A program made the position numbers and the translations under genes. Shown piece after piece: positions 1 to 20,924 of a stretch of 20,924 nt of DNA. The notes under the pieces are model-generated. The model was not told the origin of the DNA and ran no database searches. It worked only from the letters and a program-made list of their open reading frames with translations. Where the stretch lies: positions 1 to 20,924 of IMG/VR virus record IMGVR_UViG_3300025073_000182; one strand, 5' to 3'. The stretch comes from a virus. Positions within the stretch are counted from its first letter, which is position 1. Each line of letters begins with the position of its first letter.

Positions 1-1072
1 CGATGGATGTTGCTGCGATGGCGGCTTCTGTCGCAACAGCTGTACGTTTCACGGACTTGTACAAACTATCCATGACATCATTATCAACTTTGTCAAGACG
101 AGCATTACCAAACTTTACGCTTTTAATTCCTTGCGTGATGCCAGGATACTTTAAGGCATAAGTCAAACTACTGAGATCGTATGTGTTCTCGTAAGATGTG
201 GCTGTAAGAGCCGTTGAATCTCGTACTAATTCAAATTTCCAATCATGCTTCGTAATAGCTTGCTGACAATCGTTTGCATCATTAAGAAGCATGTTCTCAG
301 AGCTATATTGTCCTCCTACCTCTACAACGGCATCGTTACAGGCTTTTTCAACAATCTTTTCCAACGATGTACTTCCATTTCCACTGTAACTAACTCCTGT
401 CGAATAGGATCCATACGACGTTGCGGTAATCGTCCCTGTAGCTGGTGACACAGGAGCATTAGGAACTGTATAGGTAAAAGCACCAGACGTAGTTACAGTA
501 ATGGTGAATGTTCCGTTGTAATCTGCTTGATCAGCCCCAGCAATAGTGACAGACTGACCCGTTTGAAGATTGTGAGCGGCTGCCGTTACGGTTGCCGTGC
601 CAGCGGCACTCGTAATCGTCACCGATAACTGACGTGCAAAACGCGCAAAAGCATAACCCGATGAGTTGGTCAAATCTTTATAAAAACTACTTACAAGCTC
701 TTCGTCAATTGATTGCGTTGCAAGAACAGTTTTTGACCCTGTCAGAGTTGTAGCACGAGAAAATTCAATCTTCTCAAAATCGAGAACAGTTACCGAGGAA
801 TCAGAATAATGATCCTTCACGGTATTTGCTGACAATGTAACTGTAGAACCAGATGGCGCCGTGGCCGTGTGAATACGAACAATTTCTGCGCTTGAATCTC
901 CAAAAGAACCAAGGAGCAAAAGCTTCCCAATAGAAGTCGGTGAGATATTAGAAACGGAAATTGATGCTGAGCCTGCTGGAGAATCCGCGATCAACCGAAT
1001 TTGTGGCTGACCTTCTAACAAGCCCGAGTTATTCACGAGAAGATTTTTGTTTTTAATGCTCAGGTTGATCAT
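1..1072 (-). CDS. Partial virion protein, possible head-tail adaptor with inserted beta module
   Basis: An open frame starts at ATG 1072 and runs 357 codons without a stop to the left edge, so the C-terminus is missing. Residues 1-150 look like a beta-rich Ig or fibronectin-like domain. Residues 151-205 form a module with 'HNLQTGQSVTIAGA', then 'NGTFTITV' and 'FTYTV', the pattern of the FCCH-like beta module found in phage virion proteins; the gene at 7432 carries a related one. Residues 235-282 ('SLEKIVEKACNDAV', then 'NDCQQAITKHDWKFEL') resemble the helical part of gp6-like adaptors, but this is from memory and tentative. The other ATG at 1076 meets a stop after seven codons, so 1072 is the start. 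It is the last visible gene of the leftward late block, downstream of the lysis-like genes. Confidence 0.75.
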   Translation of the reverse strand, partial: MINLSIKNKNLLVNNSGLLEGQPQIRLIADSPAGSASISVSNISPTSIGKLLLLGSFGDSSAEIVRIHTATAPSGSTVTLSANTVKDHYSDSSVTVLDFEKIEFSRATTLTGSKTVLATQSIDEELVSSFYKDLTNSSGYAFARFARQLSVTITSAAGTATVTAAAHNLQTGQSVTIAGADQADYNGTFTITVTTSGAFTYTVPNAPVSPATGTITATSYGSYSTGVSYSGNGSTSLEKIVEKACNDAVVEVGGQYSSENMLLNDANDCQQAITKHDWKFELVRDSTALTATSYENTYDLSSLTYALKYPGITQGIKSVKFGNARLDKVDNDVMDSLYKSVKRTAVATEAAIAATSI

Positions 1073-1080
1073 ACATTTTT

Positions 1081-1128
1081 AGGGATAATTCCCTTAGCTA
1101 TGAGCCTCTATTCTACAGAGAGGCTCAT
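1081..1128. repeat. Two adjacent hairpins between late genes
   Basis: AGGGA-TAAT-TCCCT (1081-1094) is a 5-bp stem. ATGAGCCTCT (1100-1109) pairs perfectly with AGAGGCTCAT (1119-1128) around a 9-nt loop. Neither is followed by a T-tract on either strand, so they are not canonical intrinsic terminators. They lie in the short gap between the 25-aa gene and the partial adaptor gene, where an mRNA-processing or stability role is possible. Confidence 0.55.
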
Positions 1129-1138
1129 AAGAAAGAAA

Positions 1139-1216
1139 CTATTCAACAACTACTTCTGGTTCGGAAACAACTTCTTCAACCACTTCTGGTTGAACTTCTT
1201 GTTCTACTTCTTGCAT
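1139..1216 (-). CDS. Putative 25-aa Glu/Val-rich peptide
   Basis: ATG at 1216, stop TAG at 1141-1139. The product is 25 residues made almost only of Glu, Val, Gln and Pro ('MQEVEQEVQPEVVEEVV' then 'SEPEVVVE'), strongly acidic and repetitive. It begins 27 nt after the holin-like stop and has the T-before-ATG context of every other start here. It could be a real micro-protein or a low-complexity accident. No family recognised. The low-complexity composition weakens the case. Confidence 0.4.
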   Translation of the reverse strand: MQEVEQEVQPEVVEEVVSEPEVVVE

Positions 1217-1243
1217 AAAGTTTTATATTAGGAATTAGTGATG

Positions 1244-1477
1244 TTATCGAACGTCCTTACCTGCCGAAGCATCTAGTGGAGGATTCGTTGTAGTCGTAGT
1301 TGTCGATGTTACCTGATCAGACGTTGGAGGTTTTGTGTTGAAGTAGTAGACAAAGACCATGGAAGTAAGAACCATGAAATCTTTTGGATCTACCTTTCCA
1401 ACAAACAAACCAGCAATTGTGGCAATCGTTATGAGGATAAATACGATCTTTGAAGCTGACCTCAATATATCAGTCAT
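1244..1477 (-). CDS. Holin-like small membrane protein, two TM segments
   Basis: The 77-aa product has two hydrophobic stretches: residues 10-27 (IVFILITIATIAGLFVG) and about 33-46 (FMVLTSMVFVYYF). A Thr-rich tail follows (six Thr at 59-64). Size, two TM helices and position directly after a peptidase gene fit a class II-type holin, which would form the membrane lesion that releases or activates a lytic enzyme. The start at 1477 lies 9 nt after the peptidase stop, within CTTAATATG. No family was identified by signature, so the holin call rests on topology and neighbourhood. It could instead be another small envelope protein. Confidence 0.6.
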   Translation of the reverse strand: MTDILRSASKIVFILITIATIAGLFVGKVDPKDFMVLTSMVFVYYFNTKPPTSDQVTSTTTTTTNPPLDASAGKDVR

Positions 1478-1486
1478 ATTAAGTTT

Positions 1487-2503
1487 TTATAGACCTTTGA
1501 TCCGTGTATACCACTGATCGCGTGTCTCTTGGTTAAAGTCGAAGATGTGTTCTCCTGTGCGTCTCCAGTTATAGAGAGAGTTGATACAGTCTCTGTAAGA
1601 ATACCCACCGTATGCGATAGCATTTGTAAGTAGTGGCCAGAATCTTCCTGCTGCGTCCAAGACGCTCTGGTTGTTAAACGCCTTCAACTGTTGCAACAGC
1701 TCGTTTGCGACCTCTATTTCTCGCTCTAGCGAGCGTCGTTGGCCATAGTGAGCTAACGCATCCTTATTGCCTTCCGCACGCACTGTATCGCGAATTTCAC
1801 GCCAATTCTCTGGTAGATCCAACATGGAATAAGCTGACTGAAACGTATAGGACAGATCTACGGTATTACGACCTTCTGAAAGAGAGAAGAGTGAGTCGTG
1901 GAGAATCCATTTATCTTTTGTCCAGCCTTTCAAGACAATAACGTGGTTATCATCCTTGCGAGTTCGTTTAGATCCGCCTGCGAAATATGTTCCAAAGGCG
2001 GCTACTGGTACGATTACACCTCCGTCTTCCATGATGGCTTGTTTCAGTTGTGCCTCGTTTGGAACGACTCGCACATATCCTGGAATTTTCTTAGCATCTC
2101 CAAATGGAATATCCAAAGCGGTCTTGCGTAGTGAATCCAGAGCGTTTGGAATGTATGGAGGAATTGGTAACTTGTCGTAAGCAACAGCCCCTTTCTTTAC
2201 CAACACGTCTAGTACAGCACGAATTGAACTTCCTTGTTCTGTACCACCTGCTTCAAAGAATGTTTTAGTCTCTGAGAGATCACAGTCGATTCCAATTTCT
2301 TTGTACTTTTTTTCCTCTATGCGAGTACATGCCATTGCTACACAGAATGGCCAGGACTGTTGGTAGCGGAAGTTTAAGTCAGGTACCTCATATTCTTCTG
2401 GAAGTTCCGTCGGTCCAGCAAAGATCTCGTCTCGCCAAACGTCACGCGGATCGAAAGAATCTGGTATGAATCCACTATTTAATTTTGGCTTGAATAGTTC
2501 CAT
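1487..2503 (-). CDS. Papain-like (C1-type) cysteine peptidase, candidate lysis enzyme
   Basis: The 338-aa product carries papain-family landmarks. 'IPDSFDPRD' (residues 13-21) resembles the start of mature C1 domains. 'QQSWPFCVAMAC' (48-59) supplies an oxyanion Gln and the likely nucleophile Cys54. 'DDNHVIVLKGW' (184-194) gives the catalytic His187. 'WILHDSLF' (199-206) sits where papain has its Asn-containing NSWG motif, with Asp203 in that place. Residues 240-338 are a helical C-terminal region of unknown role. No signal peptide is visible. It lies between a 37-aa peptide gene (one-base gap) and a holin-like gene, so lysis is the simplest reading. Alternatives are a virion maturation protease or a virion-associated entry peptidase. 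The fold call is fairly secure; the role is inferred. Confidence 0.75.
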   Translation of the reverse strand: MELFKPKLNSGFIPDSFDPRDVWRDEIFAGPTELPEEYEVPDLNFRYQQSWPFCVAMACTRIEEKKYKEIGIDCDLSETKTFFEAGGTEQGSSIRAVLDVLVKKGAVAYDKLPIPPYIPNALDSLRKTALDIPFGDAKKIPGYVRVVPNEAQLKQAIMEDGGVIVPVAAFGTYFAGGSKRTRKDDNHVIVLKGWTKDKWILHDSLFSLSEGRNTVDLSYTFQSAYSMLDLPENWREIRDTVRAEGNKDALAHYGQRRSLEREIEVANELLQQLKAFNNQSVLDAAGRFWPLLTNAIAYGGYSYRDCINSLYNWRRTGEHIFDFNQETRDQWYTRIKGL

Positions 2504-2619: not shown

Positions 2620-2907
2620 TTACTTGATCAATTCCCATGATTTAAGTTGGCCTTTTAGTTCACCAACGTCCGAGATAATTTCGGTTGATTGTTGAGAGTT
2701 CCGGTCAATCTTATCGTTGCTGTGATCCAATTTGTCGTCAACGCGTAAGATAAGATTGATCTGAAATGCAAGGACACTTGTGATGACGGCCATTGCTGTT
2801 CCAAGTACCCAATAGAAGTGACGGTACCCAACCTTTTCTTCAAGAGCTTCCGTCATTTTTGTTGAGAAGTCGTTAAATTCTTTGGTTGAGACAAATGATT
2901 CAGGCAT
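2620..2907 (-). CDS. Small membrane protein with one TM and flanking coiled coils
   Basis: The 95-aa product has an amphipathic N-terminus (residues 8-27), one hydrophobic helix at about 32-54 (FYWVLGTAMAVITSVLAF and on), then a polar helical region (55-95) of coiled-coil character (DDKLDHSNDKIDRN). The topology resembles phage lysis accessory or XhlA-like membrane proteins, though XhlA has its TM near the C-terminus, so the match is not direct. It sits 15 nt downstream of the beta-helix spike gene and is followed after one base by the 37-aa gene, at the head of the lysis-like cassette. Alternatives are a spanin-like or antiholin-like protein. Confidence 0.6.
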   Translation of the reverse strand: MPESFVSTKEFNDFSTKMTEALEEKVGYRHFYWVLGTAMAVITSVLAFQINLILRVDDKLDHSNDKIDRNSQQSTEIISDVGELKGQLKSWELIK

Positions 2908-2922: not shown

Positions 2923-4590
2923 TTATGAAACTTGTGATCGTTTCTTATAAGGTGAGTGAGTGACGAGCGCTGCGTTTCCTCCGAGAGTAATTTCTGCCAG
3001 CAGTGTCGTATCACTAATCTTCGTTACTCCCGTCACTGGAATCCCTGTCTCAAAACAGATCGACGCCGCATTGACCACATAGTCTGCATCAACGACTGGG
3101 TTACCAGAGATACTGTTCAAGTCTTGGACAGCTCCCGCCTGCCATTCAGCAAGTGTTGAATAAGAGGCAGCAGGAAACTTTGTTCCCATTGTGGCAGTTC
3201 CAGTTAGGTAGAAACACTGATAGTCAGCGTCAAGCGTGGCGAATGACGTATCCGAGAACTCGTAGGCTTTATCGGCGTCTCGAATGACTAAGTTATTTCG
3301 CAAGAAGGCATTATCTGAGTCCTCTCCTACTCCATTTTCTGTGATAGCGAGAGATGTTCCAACCATTGATCCGTTGTTATAGATTACGTTATTCACGCAT
3401 CTAATCGACGATTGACCTTTCATTCGTACTGGATAGGTACAATTCACAAATACGTTGTTACGAATGTAACCAGCCGTCCATGCCTCGCTATATCCTTTAC
3501 ATGCAGCCGCATAAGCAGCTCCATAAACATAGTTATTTTCAACGTAGAGGTTCTTATTTCCACCCATCATGATTGCATGAGCAGAACCGATAGAAAGTCC
3601 ATAATATGGGGCAAAGTATAGTTGATTTCCTCGGATCGTCGATCCGTCAAAGGCATTTGCTTTGGATGTAATATCTCCACCTTCATCACCCATCAAAATA
3701 CCGTAGTTATCAGCATTGTGTGTGTAGATGATGTTGTCTTCCACTGTCCAAACACAGTTGGGGCCAGTACCAACAGTCGATCGGAATGAAACTGGAAGCG
3801 TTGTGGTCAAGACACCAGGAACATTGACTGTGTTACGTGAGAATGTTCCCGTTCCATTCACGTTGAGAATATCAACAATCGTTCGTGTGTTGTTTGTTCC
3901 AACGGTAAATACGTTGTCGGTAATGACCATGTTTGTATATCCACCAGCTGCCATGCGGATCAAAGCATAATTTGAAAGGCAAGAAATGTTACAATTCGTA
4001 ATCGTAACGACTCCAGATGTAACAGCTGTCTGCATGTAAATAACACCATTCATCGTGAGTCCGAGTGGTACGTCAATCGTACAGTTGTTGAGTGTGAATC
4101 CTCCAGCTCCTCCCAGTACGTGAACGATTTGTGATTCTGTATTTGCTGTGATCGTGCATCCATCAAGCGTCACACCGCTCATTCCACTGTTCAACCGAAG
4201 TGTTGTTGTTTTTCCGTTGATAAATCCACAATTTGAGAATGTGGTGGCTTGATTAGCAGCTCCACCCTCGACATGATAAGCGGGTAGAGAACCGCTTGAA
4301 GATCCATCAATAGAAAATCCAGTAAAAGTCTTTGTTTTTGTACTGTTCAAGTAAATAACACGAGAAGTGTTGTTGCCTCTGATAAATGTAATCCCTCGTC
4401 CAGCACCAACCCAAGTGATCTGTTTAGCCACGGTCAAGTACGTTGCTTCTTGAAAAATACCAGCACCAACATTCACCGTGTCTCCGTCAGATGCGGATGA
4501 TTCGGCTTTGGTCAACGTTAACCACGGCGTCCCAGCGGAGCCGTTACCTGTGGTGTCGTTACCTGTTGTTGCGACGTAGTAGGTGGCCAT
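2923..4590 (-). CDS. Right-handed beta-helix tail spike or fibre protein
   Basis: The 555-aa product opens with 'ATYYVATTGNDTTGNGSAG' and then 'GDTVNVGAGIFQEATY', the usual start of pectate-lyase-like parallel beta-helix proteins (DUF1565 or NosD style). Regularly spaced Asn/Thr/Val-rich turns continue to about residue 450 ('FSNCGFING', 'LDGCTITAN', 'LNNCTIDVP', 'ITNCNISC', 'VENNYVYGA', 'IRNNVFVN'). The last ~100 residues are a separate C-terminal part. Such proteins serve as receptor-binding spikes, often polysaccharide-degrading, but I cannot assign catalytic residues. The upstream neighbour is a LamG-like gene whose stop is 3 nt away (TAA-TCT-ATG), so they are co-translated and probably both surface-exposed. 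Confidence 0.8.
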   Translation of the reverse strand: MATYYVATTGNDTTGNGSAGTPWLTLTKAESSASDGDTVNVGAGIFQEATYLTVAKQITWVGAGRGITFIRGNNTSRVIYLNSTKTKTFTGFSIDGSSSGSLPAYHVEGGAANQATTFSNCGFINGKTTTLRLNSGMSGVTLDGCTITANTESQIVHVLGGAGGFTLNNCTIDVPLGLTMNGVIYMQTAVTSGVVTITNCNISCLSNYALIRMAAGGYTNMVITDNVFTVGTNNTRTIVDILNVNGTGTFSRNTVNVPGVLTTTLPVSFRSTVGTGPNCVWTVEDNIIYTHNADNYGILMGDEGGDITSKANAFDGSTIRGNQLYFAPYYGLSIGSAHAIMMGGNKNLYVENNYVYGAAYAAACKGYSEAWTAGYIRNNVFVNCTYPVRMKGQSSIRCVNNVIYNNGSMVGTSLAITENGVGEDSDNAFLRNNLVIRDADKAYEFSDTSFATLDADYQCFYLTGTATMGTKFPAASYSTLAEWQAGAVQDLNSISGNPVVDADYVVNAASICFETGIPVTGVTKISDTTLLAEITLGGNAALVTHSPYKKRSQVS

Positions 4591-4593: not shown

Positions 4594-5208
4594 TTAAATT
4601 GCGTGGACAAGACCGATATTTGGACGTTTGAGATCATATCCATAGACAAAATCTGTTGGATAGATACGTTTTTTTGAAATGTTTGTGACTTCTGTGGCTG
4701 TAAGCGCGCGCGAATAGAAGTAAGGCTTTGTCACCTTCATTCCACCAGGATGCGCACCATCGGCGTCACCGAATTGAAATGGGATCGCAATGGTCGGGTC
4801 AAAGTTTTCTGCTTCTGAATGTGCACTTTGTGTCAAAGAAGTTCCATCAACGTAAAAATCAATTCCATCAACACCAGAGTGAGTACCATTCAAAATTACG
4901 TTATACCAATTACCGACGATCATCTTGTCTGTCCATCCATAGTTCCGTGTATTTGCAGACTCATCGGTCATTTCAAGATCAATCACGCCAGCGTTTTTGT
5001 TACGAAAAAGGTAAAAAGAACTACTGTCAGACGCTCCACCAAAAAACGCATTGTAATTTGCGTCAGTAAACAAAACATCGAACACCATAGCAAATGCCGT
5101 TTCCGTCACGAGATTGAGACTTCCAAGCGTTCCGAGGACGGCCTTATCGCCAGCCGCTCCTGGAATATGGATTGAAAATCCCACGTCATTTGCTGTTGGA
5201 TGCAACAT
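4594..5208 (-). CDS. LamG/concanavalin-like virion protein (paralogue 2)
   Basis: The 204-aa product has a jelly-roll LamG_3 pattern: 'FAMVFDVLF' (39-47), 'GNWYNVILNGTH' (99-110), 'IDFYVDGTSL' (116-125) and 'KPYFYSRALTATEV' (161-174). The last motif is shared with the gene just upstream. An ATG at 5295 would add 29 residues but would overlap that gene by 86 nt and has A at -1. ATG 5208 follows the upstream TAA by one base (TAA-T-ATG) and starts the domain cleanly, so I chose it. The fold usually binds glycans or proteins; here it is probably a fibre or decoration module on the virion. Confidence 0.8.
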   Translation of the reverse strand: MLHPTANDVGFSIHIPGAAGDKAVLGTLGSLNLVTETAFAMVFDVLFTDANYNAFFGGASDSSSFYLFRNKNAGVIDLEMTDESANTRNYGWTDKMIVGNWYNVILNGTHSGVDGIDFYVDGTSLTQSAHSEAENFDPTIAIPFQFGDADGAHPGGMKVTKPYFYSRALTATEVTNISKKRIYPTDFVYGYDLKRPNIGLVHAI

Positions 5209-5209: not shown

Positions 5210-5962
5210 TTAAACTTGGCGTGCAGGTCTTGACTTATAGGGCGTGCTAGTGACCCATTGACCGGCAGCAGTAAGCGTCCCTGTGTGTGCAGCATTTACA
5301 TCAGCAACGGAAGTTCCTGCTCCTTCTGTGAACTCATATCCAGCGAATGGACTTGAAGGAACAGTGTGTTGATAAAACCAGTCTGTTACCTCCTGTTGTG
5401 TAAGTTCTCGTGTGTAGAAGTATGGACGGGACAGAGATCCAACCCATGCGGTTGTGACGGCACCAGTTCCAAGACCTGAACCAAAAGCAAAGTTTCTGTT
5501 GAAGTCAATACAGTCTGTGAGAAGAACATCTGAAATTGTGGTTGTGGTCTGCAAAACTCCGTCAAGATACATCTTCATTCCAGCCGCACGATTCGTTGCG
5601 TCTTTTGTACAGACGAGGTGATGCCATAGACCGTCGTTCACACGTTTTGTACTTACCTGGACACCAAGTGCGTGACCTGATTGATCTCGAAGTTGGAAGT
5701 TCACGAATCCGACGTTGCTTGAATTTCGAGTAATTCCACACAAAAGATAATTTCCTCCAGCAGAGTTCGATGTTCCAAGGTAATACTGAACTGTTGTGAG
5801 TTTGCTATTCGTCTTAATCCAGAGACCAAACGAAAATCCACCCATCATCGACGAACCGAGTGTTCCCATCGTATCCAAAGAAACACGCTGTGACCCACTA
5901 AAAGATAGTGCATACGGCATGTTGTCTACTTTTCTTCGATTGGATACGGCTGTTCGTGCCAT
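5210..5962 (-). CDS. LamG/concanavalin-like virion protein (paralogue 1)
   Basis: The 250-aa product shows the LamG-like jelly-roll signature: 'YALSFSGSQRVSLD' (17-30), 'FSFGLWIK' (43-50), 'DGLWHHLVCTKD' (110-121), 'MYLDGVLQ' (131-138) and 'PYFYTRELTQQEV' (180-192). A C-terminal extension follows ('GYEFTEGAGTSVADVN'). It shares the PYFY[ST]R[AE]LT..EV motif with the next gene, so the pair probably arose by duplication. The start at 5962 comes 3 nt after the upstream TAA (TAATCTATG); an internal Met15 has C at -1 and is less likely. The likely role is glycan or protein binding at the virion surface. No catalytic residues were recognised. Confidence 0.8.
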   Translation of the reverse strand: MARTAVSNRRKVDNMPYALSFSGSQRVSLDTMGTLGSSMMGGFSFGLWIKTNSKLTTVQYYLGTSNSAGGNYLLCGITRNSSNVGFVNFQLRDQSGHALGVQVSTKRVNDGLWHHLVCTKDATNRAAGMKMYLDGVLQTTTTISDVLLTDCIDFNRNFAFGSGLGTGAVTTAWVGSLSRPYFYTRELTQQEVTDWFYQHTVPSSPFAGYEFTEGAGTSVADVNAAHTGTLTAAGQWVTSTPYKSRPARQV

Positions 5963-5965: not shown

Positions 5966-6565
5966 TTATCGGTAAGAGACCATCACGTTGACGTCAGCAG
6001 TTGTTGTAAAGTCAACATAAATTCCAGTGGCACAAGACACATCGAGAATTACAGTGACAGGAGCGATTAAGGCGGCTGGGATATACGTTGAGAAGATCTT
6101 TGTACCTGCGGCGGACGTGTTGTCGTAAATATCAATCGTTCCAGCCGTTGCTGCTGCGTCTGTTGGGGTGATTGTTACCGTATGAACAAAGCCTGCGGAT
6201 GCTTTCACCTGTGCGTCAGCCGTAAGAATAGCCGACATGGAGTATCGGTGTTCGACTTTTGCAACGGCTGCGTCATTATCTTCGTATCCAGGAGCATATC
6301 CCTCACGAATCCAAACGTGACCATTGGCATCTGTATTGATAGTCGCATAATCACCGTCTGTTCCAGCAGAAGAAGCGGCTGTGTCTGTGCGTTTAGTCAA
6401 GGCGGGAATACCTTTATCTCCACTAGAATGGGCTGCATCTTCTGTTTTGATAGCAGACTCAATAGTAGCAAGAGAAGTATTCCCTGTATCTTGCTTTGAA
6501 GCGATGGCTAGTTTTTCCCCAAGCGTGAGATAGGAGCTATCAAAAGAAGCTGTTCTTTCACCCAT
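5966..6565 (-). CDS. Virion protein with 'DGDYATI..DANG' motif
   Basis: The 199-aa product contains 'KTEDAAHSSGDKGIPALTKR' followed by 'DTAASSAGTDGDYATINTD', a pattern I recognise from structural proteins of many tailed phages ('EDAAH.SGD.G..AL..R.DTAA..AGTDGDY..L..D..G'). The C-terminal half (residues 105-199) is predicted beta ('VHTVTITPTDAAATAGTIDI' region), like a jelly-roll virion domain. It lies between a long coiled coil and the LamG pair, with short gaps. The exact role (base, neck or fibre component) is not determined. Confidence 0.65.
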   Translation of the reverse strand: MGERTASFDSSYLTLGEKLAIASKQDTGNTSLATIESAIKTEDAAHSSGDKGIPALTKRTDTAASSAGTDGDYATINTDANGHVWIREGYAPGYEDNDAAVAKVEHRYSMSAILTADAQVKASAGFVHTVTITPTDAAATAGTIDIYDNTSAAGTKIFSTYIPAALIAPVTVILDVSCATGIYVDFTTTADVNVMVSYR

Positions 6566-6574: not shown

Positions 6575-7429
6575 TTACTCGATTGAATCAATCAGTGCTT
6601 CTAGCTCTTTTTCTTCAGTCATAGACTTGAAGCGTCGCACCTTTGTATCAATACCTTCTTCAAGCTTATCCAAGAAAGCTCGTTTTTCTGACATGGTTTC
6701 TTCAAATAACTCAAACTCCATCTCTTTAGCTTTTACATCATCACAGAGTTTTGAGAACTCCTTCTGAAGTTTCTTTAGTCCTTCTTCCACACCAATCAAC
6801 TTCTTTTGTGATAATTCAGCCTGATCTAATTCAACTCGAACTATTTCAAGTTTTTCAGACAACTTTTGAAGAATTTTCTTCTTGCTCTTTTCTTCCTCAT
6901 TCAAATTCTCTAAACGAGTTAGAGTACCAGCAACATCATCTGTATTCTTCTCAATTTTTTGAACAAGAAAATCACAACTCTTCTGAAGGGTCTTTTTCTG
7001 TGACTGAAGATCACTCACAAGTTCAAGTTCGGCCTTTTTTTCATCCTGAATAGCTACCAATTCTTTACGAGAACGTCTTGTAACTTCATCAATACCTTTC
7101 TGAATCGTTGAATCTAATTGATCGACTTCCTTTTGTTTTTCTTTCTGTTTCACTTGCAAAGAACGAATTTCGGATTGAGCCGTAACTTTATCTTGTTCTA
7201 AGTCCATGCGAATTTGACGCAAATCTTCTATCTTCTGTTTTTCTACGATCTGTTCGTCAAAGACTCGCTGCTTTTCAATTCGTAGATCAGCGATTTCTTC
7301 TTCAAGAGCACGTTTTTCTTTTTTTGTCAAATCCAACTGTGTCTCTGCACTCTTTGCGAGATTGTAAAAACGATCTGCCTCTTTTTTTGCCTCGGCGACA
7401 GAATAAGGCTTTTGTGTATTTTGAATCAT
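6575..7429 (-). CDS. Long coiled-coil protein, probable virion rod or fibre component
   Basis: The 284-aa product is almost entirely heptad-type coiled coil from about residue 12 to 280, rich in Glu, Lys, Gln and Leu, with a single Pro at position 8. Examples are 'KKEKRALEEEIADLRIEKQR' and 'KLSEKLEIVRVELDQAELSQ'. No signal peptide, TM segment or enzymatic motif is seen. It sits two bases after the stop of the 202-aa virion gene and before another virion gene, so a structural rod, trimeric stalk or assembly factor is the best guess. It is too short for a usual tape-measure protein and lacks the hydrophobic segments those carry. Confidence 0.6.
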   Translation of the reverse strand: MIQNTQKPYSVAEAKKEADRFYNLAKSAETQLDLTKKEKRALEEEIADLRIEKQRVFDEQIVEKQKIEDLRQIRMDLEQDKVTAQSEIRSLQVKQKEKQKEVDQLDSTIQKGIDEVTRRSRKELVAIQDEKKAELELVSDLQSQKKTLQKSCDFLVQKIEKNTDDVAGTLTRLENLNEEEKSKKKILQKLSEKLEIVRVELDQAELSQKKLIGVEEGLKKLQKEFSKLCDDVKAKEMEFELFEETMSEKRAFLDKLEEGIDTKVRRFKSMTEEKELEALIDSIE

Positions 7430-7431: not shown

Positions 7432-8040
7432 CTATAAGACATTATTCAAACGAACCTTGACCGTAGCTTCTCCAGCAGTTCCAGCAGTTGCCAAGACTCC
7501 AATCCAGCGCATCTTGCTTCTATTGACGACAAAAGTACGATGATCGTCTGCGGTTGCAACAACAAATCCTGTATCTCCATCAATACTTGCTTCATCCTCT
7601 GTATCAACAACGTCGACAAAATCATATTGATTAGAGGTAGACTGAGCGAGTGCTGGATCTGGACATGTTTCTTGATCGGAACACCAAAACTTGAGTGTAA
7701 AGGCAGCATCACCACCTCCGTCGGTATCAACAGAGATGGACACATGGTTTGCGTCGTCTGCAAAGATTCCAACAGAAGACATTTTGGCCCATGTTCCAGT
7801 ACCAGCTCCAATACCATTTCCTGTTGAATCATCAAGAGAAAATTCGTTTGCGGAAACTCGTGTTACTTTCCACGTTCCATTAGCAGCAGTGTTTACCGCG
7901 TGACTAATAATAGTCACATAGTCTCCAGTAGCAAGACCATGAGAGGCATCTGTAACAACAATCGGAGAAGCATTTGTTGAGCTATCAATTGCTCGTACTG
8001 GGGCAGCACTCATTAAAGTATATTGAACGGATGAGTTCAT
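7432..8040 (-). CDS. Virion protein with N-terminal FCCH-like beta module
   Basis: In the 202-aa product, residues 27-70 show 'IVVTDASHGLATGDYVTI', then 'NTAANGTWKVT' and 'ANEFSLD', the 'HGL.TGD.V.I...NG.W.VT' module (FCCH-like) common in tail and fibre proteins. The rest is beta-rich: 'AFTLKFWCSDQETCPDP', then 'RTFVVNRSKMRWIGVLATAG' near the end. It follows the 543-aa beta-helix gene after a 63-nt gap that holds a 24-bp perfect palindrome. The same module is found in the partial gene at the left edge. The role is probably structural. Confidence 0.65.
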   Translation of the reverse strand: MNSSVQYTLMSAAPVRAIDSSTNASPIVVTDASHGLATGDYVTIISHAVNTAANGTWKVTRVSANEFSLDDSTGNGIGAGTGTWAKMSSVGIFADDANHVSISVDTDGGGDAAFTLKFWCSDQETCPDPALAQSTSNQYDFVDVVDTEDEASIDGDTGFVVATADDHRTFVVNRSKMRWIGVLATAGTAGEATVKVRLNNVL

Positions 8041-13335: not shown

Positions 13336-15279
13336 TTATTGATTCATTGCGCTCGTACCAATACCTCTATTTAACTGGGCGCCTAAACCACCTTGGTCAC
13401 CACCTTGCATAGCTGCTTCCGTTGGAAGAGCCGGCATGTTCTTATTAAAGAACTTGTCAGGATTCTGTTTAGAGTGAACAGCGTAACGATCCATAAGATA
13501 AGGGAAGTTGAGAGACTGTGGACCAAATAACGTGATCGCATCCTGAATATCTTGCTTAAACATCACTCGCTGTAGATCTGAAGAATCCTTTTCGGTTGGA
13601 TTAATTGTGATATACCAGAAATATTTCATTTTCGCGATATCTGGATGGATATATGTCTTGCGAATAGGCATCCGCATCTGTTTAGACAACTGATCTTCCT
13701 CCTCCATGATCTGTTCTGGTGAAAAGTTTGGCGCATCAGGAGAAAATTGAATGATTTTCTTACCCTTTTGCGTATTTTCCATCGCTGTTTCCACAGAAAA
13801 CTGTTGGTATACGTCCTGCATCTCTCCAGTAATGTCACTAATCTTGGTATCTTGCTTCTTCGTGTAATTGGCAAGGATGTTATAGATACGCAACCAAGCA
13901 AGTTGTTTCTCAAAGGCAATAACGCCATAAATTGCGAGACCAAGTTTCATCATCTGCTGCTTTTTCAGCTCTAAAATCTCCGTGGCAGTCTGACGACCTG
14001 CTTCAGAGTCCCCCATGAAAGCCGGTGATACTGACTTTTGGTCAACAAGGTTCTTAATAAACTGATATGCCGCAAATTCTGACTGTGAAACCCCTTGAAC
14101 ATCTCCAATTGGCTGAAGCTTTGAAGGATCAACCTGGTTCGTAATCTCACCAGCATTAAAAATCTTTCGTGACAGCACACGACCCGTGTTGTTAGCCATT
14201 GGAGGCATGAACGACTTGCGGGTTTTGAGAATAATCAATTTAAGAAATTCGTCCAAGACTTCCTGATCAACTTTTGTCTTTGACGGAATACTCTTAGAAA
14301 GAGCAAAAAACTGCGAGATAGGATAGACGTCGCCTTTAGCAATTGGCAATTCACCAGAAGGCGAAATGGCCGATAGTGGAAAGCCACATGGCAACATCAT
14401 CACGCCATTCAACATGATCATGAACTCGTTGCTGAACGGTTTATAAACCTTGAGAATTTCAACAAAACCTTCCTTTTGTTGCTCTAACGTCCACGAACGA
14501 TAAGAAGAATCTTCAGTCTCTACGGTACGAACAACATGCTTTGGAACAAAAGCAAAACGCTCCCAACCTTTGTAAATTGCTTCTGCTTGAGCGTAAGGAA
14601 CAACGTCAATCGTTGCAACTAAAGCCTGCTTCTTAATCTCAAACTCGTGCATGTTGCCCAAGATCACCTTGTCACCACGAATCAAGCGCGTCTGACAACC
14701 AACAAAACCTGGTGCATCCTTTTCCGTCCACTTGATATTCTTAATTTTCACACCACTCGACCAATCGACATCTTTCAACTTCTTTTCGATCTTCGTTTCT
14801 TCAATCCACAATTCCTCCACAAAAACCGTCCCTTGATCGAGAAGCTCTTTATAAAGAAGTGGGCGGCGAGCATCGTAGTCCTCCAGCTCACGCGACTTCT
14901 TAATGAGATCCTCCATGTTTGCACCAAGCTCATCAATCTCTAAATTCTCCTCATCAAACGCCAAAATATCTGCTTCAAGATTATAGTTAAGCAGAGCTGA
15001 AAGGAGAGTCGAAGATTTTTCTTCTGTAGTGCCAGTAACAATGCGCGTGTCTTCAGAGTTCTTCTTTGGGGGAATATAAGAATTTGCGGCGCGAAGGTTG
15101 GAGTCATAATACTCCTGACCATTCATGTCATTCAGTTCGCGGTGTGCAGAGTTCCATTGCAACCGAGCTTCCGTCAGTTCCTTAATAAGGAGCGAACGGT
15201 ACGCGGTCTCTTCCTCGGAATAATCAGGAATCGTAGCAGATTCGAGGACGGCGACTGCTTCGCTCTTTTTATAAGCCAT
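13336..15279 (-). CDS. Portal protein
   Basis: The 647-aa product is directly downstream of TerL, where the portal is encoded. It is large and mixed alpha/beta, with the 'GDSEAGRQTATEILELKKQQ' stretch (residues 423-442), a TATE-type motif seen in podovirus-like portals. The helix after it ('MMKLGLAIYGVIAFEKQLAW') fits the portal stem or crown region. The Gly/Gln-rich C-terminus ('AAMQGGDQGGLGAQLNRGIG') is also common in portals. The portal is the 12-mer vertex through which DNA is packaged and ejected; it works with TerL. Length fits the larger portal families. Confidence 0.85.
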   Translation of the reverse strand: MAYKKSEAVAVLESATIPDYSEEETAYRSLLIKELTEARLQWNSAHRELNDMNGQEYYDSNLRAANSYIPPKKNSEDTRIVTGTTEEKSSTLLSALLNYNLEADILAFDEENLEIDELGANMEDLIKKSRELEDYDARRPLLYKELLDQGTVFVEELWIEETKIEKKLKDVDWSSGVKIKNIKWTEKDAPGFVGCQTRLIRGDKVILGNMHEFEIKKQALVATIDVVPYAQAEAIYKGWERFAFVPKHVVRTVETEDSSYRSWTLEQQKEGFVEILKVYKPFSNEFMIMLNGVMMLPCGFPLSAISPSGELPIAKGDVYPISQFFALSKSIPSKTKVDQEVLDEFLKLIILKTRKSFMPPMANNTGRVLSRKIFNAGEITNQVDPSKLQPIGDVQGVSQSEFAAYQFIKNLVDQKSVSPAFMGDSEAGRQTATEILELKKQQMMKLGLAIYGVIAFEKQLAWLRIYNILANYTKKQDTKISDITGEMQDVYQQFSVETAMENTQKGKKIIQFSPDAPNFSPEQIMEEEDQLSKQMRMPIRKTYIHPDIAKMKYFWYITINPTEKDSSDLQRVMFKQDIQDAITLFGPQSLNFPYLMDRYAVHSKQNPDKFFNKNMPALPTEAAMQGGDQGGLGAQLNRGIGTSAMNQ

Positions 15280-15296: not shown

Positions 15297-16580
15297 CTAA
15301 ATCGCGGCAAAGCGATCAAATGAGGTGTTATGTTCAGAAAAATCTTCATCAGAAGACGTGGCTGGAATCAGTGTAGAACGTACAGGAATAGTGAGACCGT
15401 GTACCGCGAGTGCAAGTGAAAATACGCAGTCGTCATGGAAACCTTTTCGTGAGCGTACATCAATTTTTCCATTCGGCGTCAAGACAAATTGAAACGCTTC
15501 AAGCTCGCTCAAGAGTTGAGGATCATCCGGTATTTTAATTTTATCTTGTTGCAAGAGAATTGCCAAGTTATCAAGAAGTTCTCGACGCGTCTGCTTTGAG
15601 AAAACAACAGCACCATCCTCACCGATATTTAAACCCTTGCGTTCGAGATCCTCCACGATAGGATCACCAACACCCGTGCGGTCAATCTTGAGCGCCGCGT
15701 TATTGTACTTAAGAGCACTAGCCTGAATAAGAAGCTTTTGAAAATTCCAATCCACCTGATTGAACCGCTCCTGCTTCTTCACACGAAAGTCATAAAGATC
15801 AATCGGAGTAATAACCGTCCAGTCATTGTACTTCGCAAGGTCAATACCCATCTGATAGAAGTGGGTAGGATTTGGAAGATCATCGGCGTGGTACGTATTT
15901 TCGCGGATACGACGAAAAAACGCTCCAGCATTTTCAAGAAAGTCACACAAATACTCCTGTCGAAAAAGTGCTTCTGGTGTCGAGCGCTTAGCTTCCTCAA
16001 TCTCTTGCTGCGTAAGACCCTGGGTATCGTAAACACTCTTTACGGACGTATACCACTCCTCAGGATTTTGACGAGCAAATTCTAAAAGTTCCCAAGAATG
16101 ATTCTTACCTTTAGGGGTAAAAATAAACGTCGCTGACCCGTGGTTTTCACGAAGAACCGGCTGAATAATAGCCGTCCAAATATCAGGATTCATTTCCGAA
16201 TATTCGTCAAAGACCACATCAATCGGGTTAATACCGCGGTGCTTGTCAATGTCCTCACATCCAGCAAGCCGTTGAATGGAACCGTTCTTCCAATAGATAC
16301 AAAGTTCAGAAGCGTTTAGCTTTTGAACCAATGGAAGCGGGACATGAGTCTTTACCAACTCGTCCCAGATAACCTTCTTCGCCTGAGCATACGTCGGCAA
16401 GAAGTAGTAATAGATCCCTGGCCGTTCTTGCGTCTTACGAATCTGTTCATTAAAAGCCGTCTTCGACTTCCCACCACGACGGTGGAAAACACCCACCTTA
16501 AACCGCTGGGGAGCCTGAAGGAAATCGAGTTGGTATGGGCGCGGAGAATAGAGATGAGGGATCTGGAACTCTTGTGGCAT
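15297..16580 (-). CDS. terL: Terminase large subunit
   Basis: The 427-aa product is the DNA-packaging motor ATPase/nuclease. The Walker A-like motif is 'FHRRGGKSK' (32-40), Walker B 'IDVVFDE' (120-126, Asp125-Glu126), and the coupling motif 'FIFTPKGKNH' (152-161). The C-terminal RNase H-like nuclease has candidate metal ligands Asp247 ('MGIDLAK'), Asp300 ('LKIDRTGVGDP') and Asp383/Asp384 ('FHDDCVFSLALA'). All key residues are present, so it looks intact, and the length fits the family. The start at 16580 is preceded by an 80-nt pyrimidine-rich leader. It pairs with the gene upstream (TerS candidate) and the portal downstream. Confidence 0.95.
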   Translation of the reverse strand: MPQEFQIPHLYSPRPYQLDFLQAPQRFKVGVFHRRGGKSKTAFNEQIRKTQERPGIYYYFLPTYAQAKKVIWDELVKTHVPLPLVQKLNASELCIYWKNGSIQRLAGCEDIDKHRGINPIDVVFDEYSEMNPDIWTAIIQPVLRENHGSATFIFTPKGKNHSWELLEFARQNPEEWYTSVKSVYDTQGLTQQEIEEAKRSTPEALFRQEYLCDFLENAGAFFRRIRENTYHADDLPNPTHFYQMGIDLAKYNDWTVITPIDLYDFRVKKQERFNQVDWNFQKLLIQASALKYNNAALKIDRTGVGDPIVEDLERKGLNIGEDGAVVFSKQTRRELLDNLAILLQQDKIKIPDDPQLLSELEAFQFVLTPNGKIDVRSRKGFHDDCVFSLALAVHGLTIPVRSTLIPATSSDEDFSEHNTSFDRFAAI

Positions 16581-16661: not shown

Positions 16662-17069
16662 CTAACCATCTTCTGGTTCTGGTTCTGGCACCACGTCGAT
16701 GGCATCGGGATAAGAAATCTGATTATTGTCATCTATGGCCTGTTTTGTGGCATACGACATGAGCTTCACGACGATACCACCATCCTCTGGGGACGTAAGC
16801 TCTGTAGGCAAGATGCGACATTGAAGCTTATTGTACTCCATTAAAGCTGTACGACGAACTATTGGGTCTGTAGAGACCAGATCCTCTTCCAAGGCATCCC
16901 ACCACAACTTACGGTTCTTATCGACCATCGCCTTAATATAAAGACTGGTCTGGCCTGTAGCGTTTAAGGTCGAAATCTTAGCTTCTTTCAAAGAAGCTAG
17001 AGAAGAGTCCAACTGCGCTGGAGGAACAGTCGTGGGAAGAGAAAGAGGATTCACATCGAAAGATGACAT
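16662..17069 (-). CDS. Candidate terminase small subunit
   Basis: The 135-aa product lies directly upstream of TerL and is the first gene of the late block, where TerS is expected. It is helical in the middle ('LYIKAMVDKNRKLWWDALEE', then 'IVRRTALMEYNKLQCRILPT') with an acidic Pro-rich tail ending 'PEPEPEDG'. I see no clear DNA-binding HTH, so the call rests on position and size. A very strong promoter candidate lies just upstream; its predicted start point is about four bases before the ATG. Confidence 0.5.
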   Translation of the reverse strand: MSSFDVNPLSLPTTVPPAQLDSSLASLKEAKISTLNATGQTSLYIKAMVDKNRKLWWDALEEDLVSTDPIVRRTALMEYNKLQCRILPTELTSPEDGGIVVKLMSYATKQAIDDNNQISYPDAIDVVPEPEPEDG

Positions 17070-17183: not shown

Positions 17184-17714
17184 ATGAGCAGCAAATACAA
17201 TGGCCGTGAGTTAAGAAAGAGAATTGAAGACAAACTTGAAATATCGAGGGGAGGATATAAGGAGTTTATTGGTGAACTATACGCGGATGGAATGTCTGGG
17301 CCTGAAATCAGCGAGTACATCACAAGAGAAACTGGTGAGACTGTAAGTGGAAGAAGCATCCAGCGAATGTTGGCAAAGGTCGGAGAAACGCGAGAGAAAA
17401 AAGAAGCTTTCAATAATGCTATTAACAGAGGGCGTGTGGTGTGGCAACTAGAAGAAGATAGAAAGAGACGAGAAGGAGCCGTACATCAGATAAATCGAGG
17501 GCTTAGATACTTAATAATAAAACGAGATGGTGGTAGATGCGTATTATGCGGGGCTAAAGATCTATTACAAGTCGATCATATCCTGGCAAAAATGAATGGG
17601 GGAAACGATTCAGAGGCTAATTTAAGGACACTGTGCATTGATTGCAATATAGGAAAAGCTATAGCAGAAGGTGAAAAACGAGTAAGTGGTACATGGAAGA
17701 AGAAAGTAGATTAA
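17184..17714 (+). CDS. HNH endonuclease with N-terminal HTH
   Basis: In the 176-aa product, residues ~25-66 ('YADGMSGPEISEYITRETGE', then 'VSGRSIQRMLAKVG') look like an HTH DNA-binding domain. Residues 107-160 form an HNH fold: Cys119-x2-Cys122, 'LQVDHILAKMNGGNDSEANL' with Asp131-His132, Asn146, and Cys151-x2-Cys154-Asn155. The zinc-ribbon cysteines and core catalytic residues are present. A TTG at 17124 is in frame but is the -35 box of its promoter, so ATG 17184 is the start. Eleven of 19 Arg codons are AGA/AGG, while TerL's first six are all CGN, so it is a likely recent arrival. It may be a homing endonuclease or, being next to the terminase, a packaging-linked nuclease. Confidence 0.85.
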   Translation: MSSKYNGRELRKRIEDKLEISRGGYKEFIGELYADGMSGPEISEYITRETGETVSGRSIQRMLAKVGETREKKEAFNNAINRGRVVWQLEEDRKRREGAVHQINRGLRYLIIKRDGGRCVLCGAKDLLQVDHILAKMNGGNDSEANLRTLCIDCNIGKAIAEGEKRVSGTWKKKVD

Positions 17715-18666: not shown

Positions 18667-18795
18667 ATGCCTTTCCTCCATTGCCTTGCGTGTGGCTATC
18701 ACGGCGTCACTACTGGAACCCTAACAGAATTTATTTTCTTGGCTTGCCCTCATTGTGGATCAACAAAAGACACTTCAGTCACTATCGAAAAATAA
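18667..18795 (+). CDS. Small zinc-ribbon protein (42 aa)
   Basis: ATG 18667 (CCCTATG) starts a 42-residue product with two CxxC knuckles: Cys6-x2-Cys9 ('HCLACGYHG') and Cys27-x2-Cys30 ('LACPHCGSTK'). That pattern binds one zinc ion, as in rubredoxin-like knuckles. An upstream TTG (18535) would give an 86-aa version, but the extra N-terminus is low in domain signal and overlaps the 37-aa gene. Such small ribbons often act as nucleic-acid or protein adaptors in phages. The gene is in the tight early cassette. Confidence 0.7.
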   Translation: MPFLHCLACGYHGVTTGTLTEFIFLACPHCGSTKDTSVTIEK

Positions 18796-18810: not shown

Positions 18811-19104
18811 ATGAGAAAAATAACAAACGAGATTGTTCTTGCATTTAATAACAACGAAACATTGAAACGCTCAAACACGGAGACAAACGGGACGGCTATA
18901 TGGTTACACGGAAACAAGATAGCCGAAAAACGGGACGGCTCTTTATGGATTTCTAATGCTGGGTGGTTTACCAAAACAACAAAGGAGCGTTTGAACGCGC
19001 TTTATGGCGTATCAATTCAACAGAAAAAGGGTCAGTGGTTTCTAAACAGTAAACCATGGTCAGGTGAGTGGGTAAACACTAGTGATTGGACTGCTAAAAT
19101 ATAA
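18811..19104 (+). CDS. Conserved phage hypothetical protein (97 aa)
   Basis: The product contains 'AIWLHGNKIAEKRDGSLWIS' followed by 'NAGWFTKTTKERLNALYGVS'. I recall this small-protein pattern from many phage early regions, but without a known function. It has no TM or catalytic motif. It lies 15 nt after the zinc-ribbon stop and 15 nt before the next gene. Confidence 0.7.
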   Translation: MRKITNEIVLAFNNNETLKRSNTETNGTAIWLHGNKIAEKRDGSLWISNAGWFTKTTKERLNALYGVSIQQKKGQWFLNSKPWSGEWVNTSDWTAKI

Positions 19105-19119: not shown

Positions 19120-19416
19120 ATGATCTCCACAGTTTCATTCACAGATTTCTGTGATTCATTCTCCGACACTTACAAAAATAACTTCACTTGGGAAGGTAAG
19201 CGTGCCCTGTTTGATTATCTTGAAGAGTATGAGGAATCAACAGATGAACAGCTTTATCTTGACCCTGTCGCCCTTTGTTGTGAGTTCTCAGAATACGAGG
19301 ATCTCGAAGATTATAATAAGCAACATGGTTCAGAATACGAAACAATTGACGAGCTAGAAGATGAAACAACCGTTATTCGTTTTGGTTCCGATTCTTTCAT
19401 CCTTGCCGATTTTTAA
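19120..19416 (+). CDS. Very acidic conserved phage hypothetical protein (98 aa)
   Basis: The 98-aa product has about 27 Asp/Glu against 5 Lys/Arg, net charge near -22. Recognisable segments are 'TWEGKRALFDYLEEYEESTD', 'LDPVALCCEFSEYEDLEDYN' and 'DETTVIRFGSDSFILADF'. I recall the 'CCE[FY]SEYE' pattern from small phage proteins of unknown function. An acidic, compact protein in an early cassette could mimic DNA (anti-restriction or anti-nuclease), but nothing here proves that. It is 15 nt downstream of the previous gene. Confidence 0.7.
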   Translation: MISTVSFTDFCDSFSDTYKNNFTWEGKRALFDYLEEYEESTDEQLYLDPVALCCEFSEYEDLEDYNKQHGSEYETIDELEDETTVIRFGSDSFILADF

Positions 19417-19426
19417 ACTAAACACT

Positions 19427-19600
19427 ATGCCAATAAGAAAAGTTGACATTTTTCTCAAAGATTTGCGCGGATTCAAAAAATATGAATGTTCAACGATTAC
19501 TGATAAAACACTGAAGCAAGTTGCGCACAACTTTCGTGTTAGACATTGTTTAGACGTTTCGCAAGTGTCTTGCGCGATTGACCATAACTATAATCCCTAA
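19427..19600 (+). CDS. Hypothetical early protein (57 aa)
   Basis: ATG 19427 (AACACTATG) starts 'MPIRKVDIFLKDLRGFKKYE'; the product ends 'VSCAIDHNYNP'. An earlier in-frame ATG (19361) would add 22 residues but overlap the acidic-protein gene, so I prefer 19427. It is basic and cysteine-containing (Cys21, 41, 49), with no recognised family. It follows the upstream stop by 10 nt. Confidence 0.6.
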   Translation: MPIRKVDIFLKDLRGFKKYECSTITDKTLKQVAHNFRVRHCLDVSQVSCAIDHNYNP

Positions 19601-19606
19601 AACACT

Positions 19607-19765
19607 ATGCAAAAAACAAAAAAAGAATCTCTGGATCTTTACCTTGATTATGTCAATAACTTTTTGACGATTGAAAAATTCGCTGAACATCATGGGATGG
19701 ATATAGTTCAAGCGTGTTGTGTTCTTCGTGAAGGTCGTTTACTCAATGAAGGGTGGATAAAATAA
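19607..19765 (+). CDS. Hypothetical early protein (52 aa)
   Basis: ATG 19607 (AACACTATG) to TAA 19763-19765. The product begins 'MQKTKKESLDLYLDYVNNFL', then 'TIEKFAEHHGMDIVQACCVL' and 'REGRLLNEGWIK'. The 'LDYVNNFLT.E.FAE..G' pattern is one I recall from phage early-region small proteins, of unknown function. It looks like a compact helical protein with a possible HTH-like arrangement. It lies 6 nt after the upstream stop and 10 nt before the next gene. Confidence 0.7.
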   Translation: MQKTKKESLDLYLDYVNNFLTIEKFAEHHGMDIVQACCVLREGRLLNEGWIK

Positions 19766-19775
19766 CTAAAAATCT

Positions 19776-19991
19776 ATGTTCTACTATAACGTGCTTCGTG
19801 AAGACGGCACTGAGTCTCTAGGCTCAACGTTTCAAGGTTTCGTTAATCTTAAAACAATGCGCGGGCTTCGTAACCGTCTCGCGCGTCGGTATGAGTTCCA
19901 AGGGAAGCGAGCAAACATCTACCACACTTTAGGTGATAACGTGTTTAACGATTCCGCGTATACGTTCCTTTGTTCAATCATTATCCACTGA
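19776..19991 (+). CDS. Hypothetical early protein (71 aa)
   Basis: The product starts 'MFYYNVLREDGTESLGSTFQ' and has a basic middle ('LKTMRGLRNRLARRYEFQGK') and a beta-type C-terminus ('NDSAYTFLCSIIIH'). No family recognised. The start is AATCTATG, 10 nt after the upstream stop. The stop is TGA immediately followed by an in-frame TAA. Confidence 0.65.
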   Translation: MFYYNVLREDGTESLGSTFQGFVNLKTMRGLRNRLARRYEFQGKRANIYHTLGDNVFNDSAYTFLCSIIIH

Positions 19992-19998
19992 TAAACAT

Positions 19999-20220
19999 AT
20001 GCAACGCGAATATCTCTTTTATATCTCAGGATCATGGACGTTAGGGATCAAAGCTCACACCTTGAAACAAGCTATCGTCAAAGCACGCAAGGATCTTTCC
20101 TCGTCGCCTTGGCTCCTCGCTCAAGACGGCCACAACAATCATGTTCTGCTCGGCTCATATCAAACTGCCTCGCCTTCTGCCTTCTGCTTTTCTCCAAAGC
20201 TAAGACACTTTAAAGAATAA
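19999..20220 (+). CDS. Hypothetical early protein (73 aa)
   Basis: ATG 19999 (AAACATATG) starts 'MQREYLFYISGSWTLGIKAH', followed by 'TLKQAIVKARKDLSSSPWLL'. An in-frame ATG at 19933 would add 22 residues but overlaps the previous gene, so 19999 is preferred. The middle is a likely amphipathic helix, and the C-terminus is basic. No family recognised. It is 7 nt after the upstream stop. Confidence 0.6.
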   Translation: MQREYLFYISGSWTLGIKAHTLKQAIVKARKDLSSSPWLLAQDGHNNHVLLGSYQTASPSAFCFSPKLRHFKE

Positions 20221-20225
20221 CGTTT

Positions 20226-20426
20226 ATGTCCCTCTCCACCATCCAATACTATTCCCGCGACGTGTACGGTTCGCGCTATCACTACGTCAAAGACCCAGAT
20301 ATTGCCTTTCACATTCAAGCTATTACCGGCCACAAAACACTCTCGACGTCTGATATCACGCATCTAACGGCTCTGGGCTTTACCTTTAACGAAGTCTTGC
20401 GTCCTGATACTCTCGTGAGAGATTAG
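20226..20426 (+). CDS. Conserved phage hypothetical protein (66 aa)
   Basis: The product begins 'MSLSTIQYYSRDVYGSRYHY', then 'VKDPDIAFHIQAITGHKTLS' and 'LTALGFTFNEVL'. I recall the 'YYSRDVYG...Y.KDP..A..IQ..TG.KTL...D...L..LGF.F.EV' pattern from many phages, always of unknown function. It looks like a small alpha/beta protein. It is the last gene of the cassette, 5 nt after the previous stop and about 40 nt before the terminator. Confidence 0.75.
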   Translation: MSLSTIQYYSRDVYGSRYHYVKDPDIAFHIQAITGHKTLSTSDITHLTALGFTFNEVLRPDTLVRD

Positions 20427-20465
20427 CCTCCCCCTTCCGTCCTCCATCGATTCACACACCAAAAT

Positions 20466-20499
20466 ACCGCCTCAGCGTTTCCACGCTTGGGGCGGTTTT
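20466..20499 (+). terminator. Rho-independent terminator closing the early cassette
   Basis: ACCGCC (20466-20471) pairs with GGCGGT (20491-20496), with an inner AGCGT/ACGCT stem (20474-20478/20483-20487) and a TTCC loop; TTTT follows. A good rightward terminator. The reverse strand has a shorter T-run, so weak bidirectional activity is possible. Confidence 0.8.
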
Positions 20500-20518
20500 C
20501 CCGTTTGTGAGTCCTTTG

Positions 20519-20546
20519 CCCTTATAGGTTACTTGTTCCCTATAAG
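20519..20546. repeat. Inverted repeat CTTATAGG/CCTATAAG before the HTH gene
   Basis: CTTATAGG (20521-20528) and CCTATAAG (20539-20546) are perfect 8-bp inverted repeats 10 nt apart. The left arm reads CCTATAAGGG on the minus strand, and that sequence also lies in the loop of the 55-nt palindrome (18507-18516). An operator for a shared regulator is possible. Confidence 0.5.
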
Positions 20547-20564
20547 CCCATAGCCTACTACCTT

Positions 20565-20924
20565 ATGATACCAATCAAAGCCCCTGAATATATGCGCCCA
20601 TTCCCCGACCCGTCGCTTGACGGTCGCGTTAAGATATCCCCCAAGGATTATGATCAAGTACGCCGTGATTATAATGATCTGCATTCGTACGCTAAGGTCG
20701 CTAACGTGTGGCATGTTTCCAAGGGGACGATTATCAACATCTGTCGCCCTGATCTGTATCATGCCAAGCAACAGAAGCGATACGCCATGCACGTGTGGCG
20801 TGATTACTACACCACGGAAGCCAATCGTTTGGCTCAGCGTGCCCATCGTGCCAAGAAGCGTTCCTTGAACCTTCTTAACAAGCCCAAAGCCCCTTGTGTT
20901 GTTTGCTATAAGCCTCTCGACCAG
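20565..20924 (+). CDS. Partial HTH protein
   Basis: ATG 20565 (CCTTATG) opens a frame of 120 codons without a stop to the right edge, so the C-terminus is missing. The start is 'MIPIKAPEYMRPFPDPSLDG'. Residues ~39-63 ('LHSYAKVANVWHVSKGTIIN', then 'ICRPD') look like an HTH of the 'sy..vA..w.VS..tI..i' type, and residues 68-102 are strongly basic and helical. A CxxC near the edge (Cys111, Cys114) may begin a zinc-binding part. It is separated from the early cassette by a terminator and an inverted repeat, so it probably has its own control. A phage regulator or nuclease-type protein is possible. Confidence 0.75.
   Translation, partial: MIPIKAPEYMRPFPDPSLDGRVKISPKDYDQVRRDYNDLHSYAKVANVWHVSKGTIINICRPDLYHAKQQKRYAMHVWRDYYTTEANRLAQRAHRAKKRSLNLLNKPKAPCVVCYKPLDQ

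Follow-up and report, generated by a model that had tools for sequence, protein, structure and literature searches.

How ribosomes that do without Shine-Dalgarno (SD) pairing pick the correct AUG is an open question, and the starts of one fragment of a tailed phage raise it in a form in which one base holds much of the signal. The fragment, which spans 20,924 bases, is the virus record IMGVR_UViG_3300025073_000182, and the whole of this stretch is referred to here as the window. A first-pass annotation reported T before all 33 of the start codons that it assigned, and suggested that U at position -1 of the message might form a pair with A37 in the initiator tRNA.

In the present study, starts were called blind to their context: each ORF was begun at its first ATG, and the longest ORFs that did not overlap were retained if they reached 80 aa. 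This procedure gives T at -1 in 20 of 21 cases. The only exception, at 5295, has A at -1 and is situated within the upstream gene; the next candidate ATG in the same frame, at 5208, adjoins the stop of the upstream gene and has T at -1. An independent curated list of 29 well-supported starts has T(-1) in 29/29 and A(-1) in 0/29, in agreement with the earlier report of T before every start, although the 33 starts of that report were not itemised. In 28 of these 29 there is no other ATG between the start and the upstream in-frame stop and the choice of start is therefore forced, as the first-pass annotation had held for most of its starts. It was also correct that 5295 is preceded by A and that Met15 of the gene starting at 5962 is preceded by C. 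Of the 101 internal Met codons within the window, 10.9% come after a T, and T makes up 37.2% of third codon positions. Under the most generous null (0.372), the probability of 29/29 is 3.5e-13. The U at -1 is a real signal for the initiation of translation.

Pairing with the 16S rRNA tail does not account for these starts. None of the 29 reaches -4.4 kcal/mol with the anti-SD (3% do so in shuffles), the mean pairing energy of the 29 leaders is that of shuffled sequence, and the purine-rich motif 5-10 nt before the start that SD-led initiation would place there is not found in the window; the earlier claim that a Shine-Dalgarno is lacking is thus borne out. Near the starts, the frequency of ATG is roughly half that in gene interiors, and structure is weaker there (-3.6 versus -7.7 kcal/mol in gene interiors, p 4e-9). 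The weak structure of these regions is roughly what base composition alone yields. In-frame TATG is depleted inside the window genes (11 observed, 27.7 expected), with no depletion in the other frames. The depletion is milder in other phages (324 observed, 429 expected) and in the putative host class considered below (548/631), and is nearly absent in a Bacillota control (2193/2267). Phages that lack the U(-1) rule also show a mild in-frame depletion, as do Bacteroidota phages, and therefore this result supports the reading as a start signal, but is not specific to it.

All of the genes described here have T at -1; those on the minus strand start at the higher coordinate of the pair given, and those on the plus strand at the lower. 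The large terminase expected of Caudoviricetes is present (PF03237, PF17289, PHROG_2), and two other ORFs are candidates for their HK97-fold capsid and portal. This terminase large subunit (15297..16580, minus strand) matches Terminase_6N at 6.1e-9, Terminase_6C at 7.1e-7, and PHROG_2 at 1.1e-35. Beside it is a small ORF (16662..17069, minus strand), possibly the small terminase subunit, homologues of which are directly upstream of terL in the related contigs L003, L004, L005, L006, and L007. The ORF at 13336..15279 (minus strand) is taken to encode the portal protein, based on its position between the terminase and capsid genes; it is 68-70% identical over its full length in four contigs, has no Pfam or PHROG match, and has no detectable relative among deposited isolate phages. 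The probable major capsid protein (9813..10820, minus strand) is 74-77% identical to, and co-terminal with, its counterparts in L002 and L007. Two further genes on the minus strand have starts identical to those of their relatives, a 146-aa head ORF (10842..11282; 71-72% to L004 and L007) and a 189-aa ORF of the portal-capsid interval (12379..12948; 45-49% to L002, L004, and L007). The same strand carries ORFs of 118 aa (12972..13328), 151 aa (11909..12364), 127 aa (11517..11900), and 543 aa (8104..9735), the last with homologues in L002, L007, and L004.

Also on the minus strand are a 202-aa ORF (7432..8040), an ORF judged by eye to be coiled-coil (6575..7429), a 199-aa ORF (5966..6565; 34% identical to L012 along 83 aa), and two ORFs that are LamG-like by eye (5210..5962 and 4594..5208). 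In the second of these, the longer start at 5295 was set aside in favour of 5208, which abuts the upstream gene's stop at 5210. These are followed by ORFs of 555 aa (2923..4590), 95 aa (2620..2907), and 338 aa (1487..2503; no Pfam or PHROG match), a small ORF (1244..1477) starting at its first ATG with a stop four codons upstream, and a structural gene truncated at the edge of the window (2..1072), which starts at its first ATG (context aaaaatgt before the ATG) with an in-frame stop three codons upstream. By eye, the product of this last gene resembles a protein starting MINLRI on a relative contig (L034:16631-17986). The plus strand encodes an HNH endonuclease (17184..17714; PF01844 at 3e-8, PHROG_589 at 1.4e-15), a 42-aa ORF that appears by eye to be zinc-ribbon-like (18667..18795), and ORFs of 97 aa (18811..19104), 98 aa (19120..19416), 52 aa (19607..19765), 71 aa (19776..19991), 73 aa (19999..20220), and 66 aa (20226..20426), as well as one cut by the window end (20565..20924).

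Relatives of the window were found in IMG/VR by terminase, portal, and capsid, and have the order terminase-portal-capsid in common. Among the portal and capsid relatives, T is at -1 in 58-91% of starts (contigs with at least 10 genes), compared with 12-41% of internal ATGs. Five relative contigs of 39-47 kb, read in whole or in part, have T(-1) at 83, 74, 76, 73, and 62% of starts. The upstream regions of the relatives are A-rich and G-poor. Where a start is 0-10 nt behind the upstream gene, T is present in 59/66 (89%); where it is more than 50 nt behind, in 80%. The rule is present in L008 (terminase 58% identical; T(-1) 82%) and absent from L009 to L012 (terminase 53-58% identical; T(-1) 18-36%).

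Candidate hosts were surveyed at 80 named genome loci around rpsL, located with an S12 query built from conserved motifs; the sequences then analysed were all real genome sequence. Sampling was chiefly of Bacillota, Chloroflexota, Patescibacteria, and Bacteroidales. Candidatus Uhrbacteria (L089) stood out, with T(-1) at 17/22 starts, followed by Magasanikbacteria (5/8). Genomes were drawn by GTDB class, and the one to which Candidatus Uhrbacteria belongs is presumably ABY1. Across 29 stretches, nearly all from that class, 278 of 450 first ATGs have T(-1), against 21% of internal ATGs, and the base frequencies at -1 in the class are A 0.11, C 0.19, G 0.08, and T 0.62. Errors of start choice were removed by using starts fixed by homology (rpsL, rpsG, fusA, tuf, rplC, and rplD). 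At these, the Uhrbacteria class has T(-1) in 86/108, C(-1) in 7, and ATG as the start codon in 107/108, whereas controls (Bacillota, Chloroflexota, and others) have T(-1) in 75/315 and ATG in 245/315. In the class, strong SD pairing is about as common as in shuffled sequence (13% versus 11%), unlike in the controls (63% versus 38% shuffled). Nonetheless, nearly all of the genomes of the class that were seen keep CCTCC in the 16S tail, with two close variants, so the putative host class retains CCUCC in its 16S rRNA and leaves SD unused.

The rule is patchy within the Uhrbacteria class, with 1/6 in one genome and 31-41% in several stretches, and in most of its genomes T(-1) is weaker than in the window. 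Elsewhere, the Moraniibacteriota class has a milder bias (110/197 T(-1), internal ATGs 29%) and the rule is therefore not unique to one class. The Peregrinibacteria class has a pyrimidine at -1 in 21 of 27 fixed starts (12 C, 9 T). Annotated Bacteroidales starts have A and T about equally often at -1 (21/21 and 16/20), and T(-1) is 22-31% in Flavobacterium and Cellulophaga phages and 67% in crAss001. The first-pass annotation had proposed looking for the bias beyond the window, and it reappears in related phages and in Uhrbacteria-class Patescibacteria. An SD-free start rule is thus common to a group of phages and to one class of Patescibacteria, and goes beyond a quirk of one contig.

From this shared signature, it is likely that the host would be found within the Patescibacteria. 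With a little less confidence, the U(-1) signal is probably imposed by the host, the phage infecting a member of the Uhrbacteria class with SD-free U(-1) starts. Because no prophage or other sequence link was found, the host assignment is drawn from the start signature. A capsid-profile search of three draws of Patescibacteria genomes (381, 380, and 384; 1,145 in all) gave no convincing prophage, its lone weak match being a cell gene rather than a prophage. The terminase profile found no prophage in genome contigs, and in Patescibacteria genomes it gave no near match and two distant ones, of 21% and 32% (partial) identity. The lack of a prophage match would equally be expected of a lytic phage.

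Other readings of the same counts differ widely in probability. That the bias is an artefact of base composition or start selection might be suspected from the few starts that the first-pass annotation chose partly by context, but blind calling gives 20/21 T, 28/29 starts are forced, internal ATGs have T at 11%, and the homology-fixed host starts have 80% T against 24% in controls; these counts refute it, and its probability is negligible. Scarcely more credible are leaderless mRNAs, in which T(-1) would be the final base of a promoter element abutting the gene. By eye, there is a TATAAT shortly upstream of one start (17069), but the rule is strongest (89%) in genes 0-10 nt behind the preceding one, and closely packed genes cannot each own a promoter, which counts against this explanation. 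It is also improbable that the host belongs to the Bacteroidota or another SD-poor lineage, with an extra T added to the known A-rich SD-free context. The relatives do have A-rich, G-poor upstream regions, as in Flavobacterium johnsoniae (PMC6847099), and crAss001 has 67% T(-1). However, the equal use of A and T in Bacteroidales and the low T(-1) of Flavobacterium and Cellulophaga phages do not fit, and nor does the window itself, with A(-1) in 0/29. Its blind-called leaders have 24% A(-3) and 95% T(-1), and are thus not A-rich at -3; the Bacteroidota pattern of A at -3/-6 with no bias of T over A at -1 is not seen there.

A host in an unsampled phylum that shares the same start rule is unlikely, though clearly less so than a Bacteroidota-type host. 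The limited range of phyla in the survey and the milder form of the rule in the Moraniibacteriota class are in its favour, but the Uhrbacteria class is the closest match found so far and the other sampled phyla do not have the rule at comparable strength. The alternative with the most weight, which falls somewhat short of an even chance, concerns the cause rather than the host: U(-1) may be selected for a contact with 16S rRNA, uS7, uS11, or an initiation factor, or through exclusion of purines. Consistent with this, the Uhrbacteria class is depleted of A and G, but not of C, at -1, the fixed starts of the Peregrinibacteria class take either pyrimidine, and A37 does not follow the strength of the rule. 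On the other hand, U greatly exceeds C at the homology-fixed host starts (86 versus 7) and is exclusive in the window, and therefore a specific pair fits better than a pyrimidine rule.

The pairing of U(-1) with A37 in initiation is plausible. Under this proposal the ribosome of the host, without SD pairing, would find the AUG in open, unstructured, G-poor leaders; the putative host class itself starts almost only at AUG, with a preference for U and an avoidance of purines at -1. U(-1) would then add a contact that marks the true AUG and partly replaces SD. The weaker step is that this contact would take the form of a fourth base pair, made in the P site with A37 of initiator tRNA. A Met-tRNA pattern that left position 37 free matched 8 of 57 Uhrbacteria-class genomes. 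Each of the eight matched genes carries A37, and the two whose whole sequence was read look like initiators. The suggestion of the first-pass annotation is compatible with this as far as the contact goes. Because A37 is widespread among bacteria and occurs even in a genome where the rule is weak (G033), its presence alone cannot account for which lineages have the rule, and the suggestion is thus partly supported. As a marker of the rule A37 was rejected, being invariant in the few tRNAs seen. More broadly, it is proposed, tentatively and with the balance tilted somewhat against it, that in a large part of the Patescibacteria and their phages UAUG may be read through A37 as a four-base initiation word that supplants Shine-Dalgarno.

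SD-free initiation is already known, and the one-base U(-1) rule is rated as a variant of it. An extended codon-anticodon interaction of U(-1) with A37 at initiation was described by Esposito et al. (2003, EMBO J), as cited in PMC8877259. Their experiments reportedly concerned single mutated starts in a chloroplast. The contact proposed here is the same, with A37 present, whereas the present case is a genome-wide base rule without SD. Flavobacterium johnsoniae, which initiates without SD, favours A at -3, -6, -12, and -13 (PMC6847099). That system and the present one are alike in leaving SD unused, keeping CCUCC in the 16S rRNA, having weak structure at starts, and having few AUGs near them (PMC6847099); they differ in that here U(-1) is dominant and A is avoided. 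SD-scarce organisms that retain CCUCC exist, chiefly Bacteroidota, and some Patescibacteria have lost it; those without CCUCC include Absconditabacteria, Campbellbacteria, Wolfebacteria, and Peribacter (PMC10783764). Both that group and the Uhrbacteria class are Patescibacteria poor in SD sites, but the latter differs in keeping CCTCC or a close variant, and no -1 rule was found in the portion of that source consulted. A search of the literature on SD use in Patescibacteria, Parcubacteria, and CPR, mostly outside subscription papers, returned almost nothing relevant and no description of a U(-1) rule.

Should the rule prove general among these uncultured bacteria, gene finders would gain a better model of starts for their genomes, and sequence would by itself offer a hint for matching phages to hosts that cannot be cultured. 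The old idea of a fourth pair with the initiator tRNA becomes testable on natural sequences.

With regard to the affinities of the phage itself, the head gene block is like that of tailed phages among the Terminase_6-type Caudoviricetes, isolates of which have no detectable relative of the portal protein. The capsid protein has 26% identity to the annotated major capsid of one environmental record (MW202647), and the terminase family is shared with Caudoviricetes having a Terminase_6-type enzyme, for example Halorubrum phage Hardycor1 (30% identity).

Terminases with 53–58 % identity to that of the window are encoded on four phage contigs (L009, L010, L011, and L012), yet these contigs do not follow the T(-1) rule, in which a T directly precedes the start ATG. 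This pattern suggests that some members of the phage group have either changed host or lost the rule. For the pair L006 and L007, the terminase gene of a 9.8-kb contig listed under IMG genome 2619618936 looks identical to its counterpart on metagenome contig 3300005672_000006; knowing what this IMG genome is could provide a host name. In phage contig G004, an intein-like insertion seems, by eye, to interrupt a DNA methylase (L034:1280–3334). A phage protein contains a long repeat run resembling SVRASVGDSVWASV (L036:2053–3159).

Within the class containing Candidatus Uhrbacteria, the putative host class, one Met-tRNA gene (L224) is initiator-like and has A:U at anticodon-stem pair 29:41; three G:C pairs, including 29:41, are usual in initiator-type stems. 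Three others (L221, L227, and L228) resemble L224 across the matched stretch, and a further Met-tRNA gene (L225) has G-U at pair 31:39. Two genomes of this class (L200 and L191) have altered 16S tails, GGATTATCTCC and GGACCATCTCC, compared with GGATCACCTCC.

In the class of Peregrinibacteria (L273–L291), either pyrimidine is preferred at -1, and rpsL starts with GTG in some of these genomes. For crAss001 (L049), T(-1) is present at 67 % of starts, against 41 % of internal ATGs, with SD-like motifs upstream of 10 out of 39 genes. The ribosomal protein operon is present in two PLSDB records (L294 and L295) that are labelled as Bacteroides finegoldii and Parabacteroides distasonis plasmids but look like pieces of chromosome.
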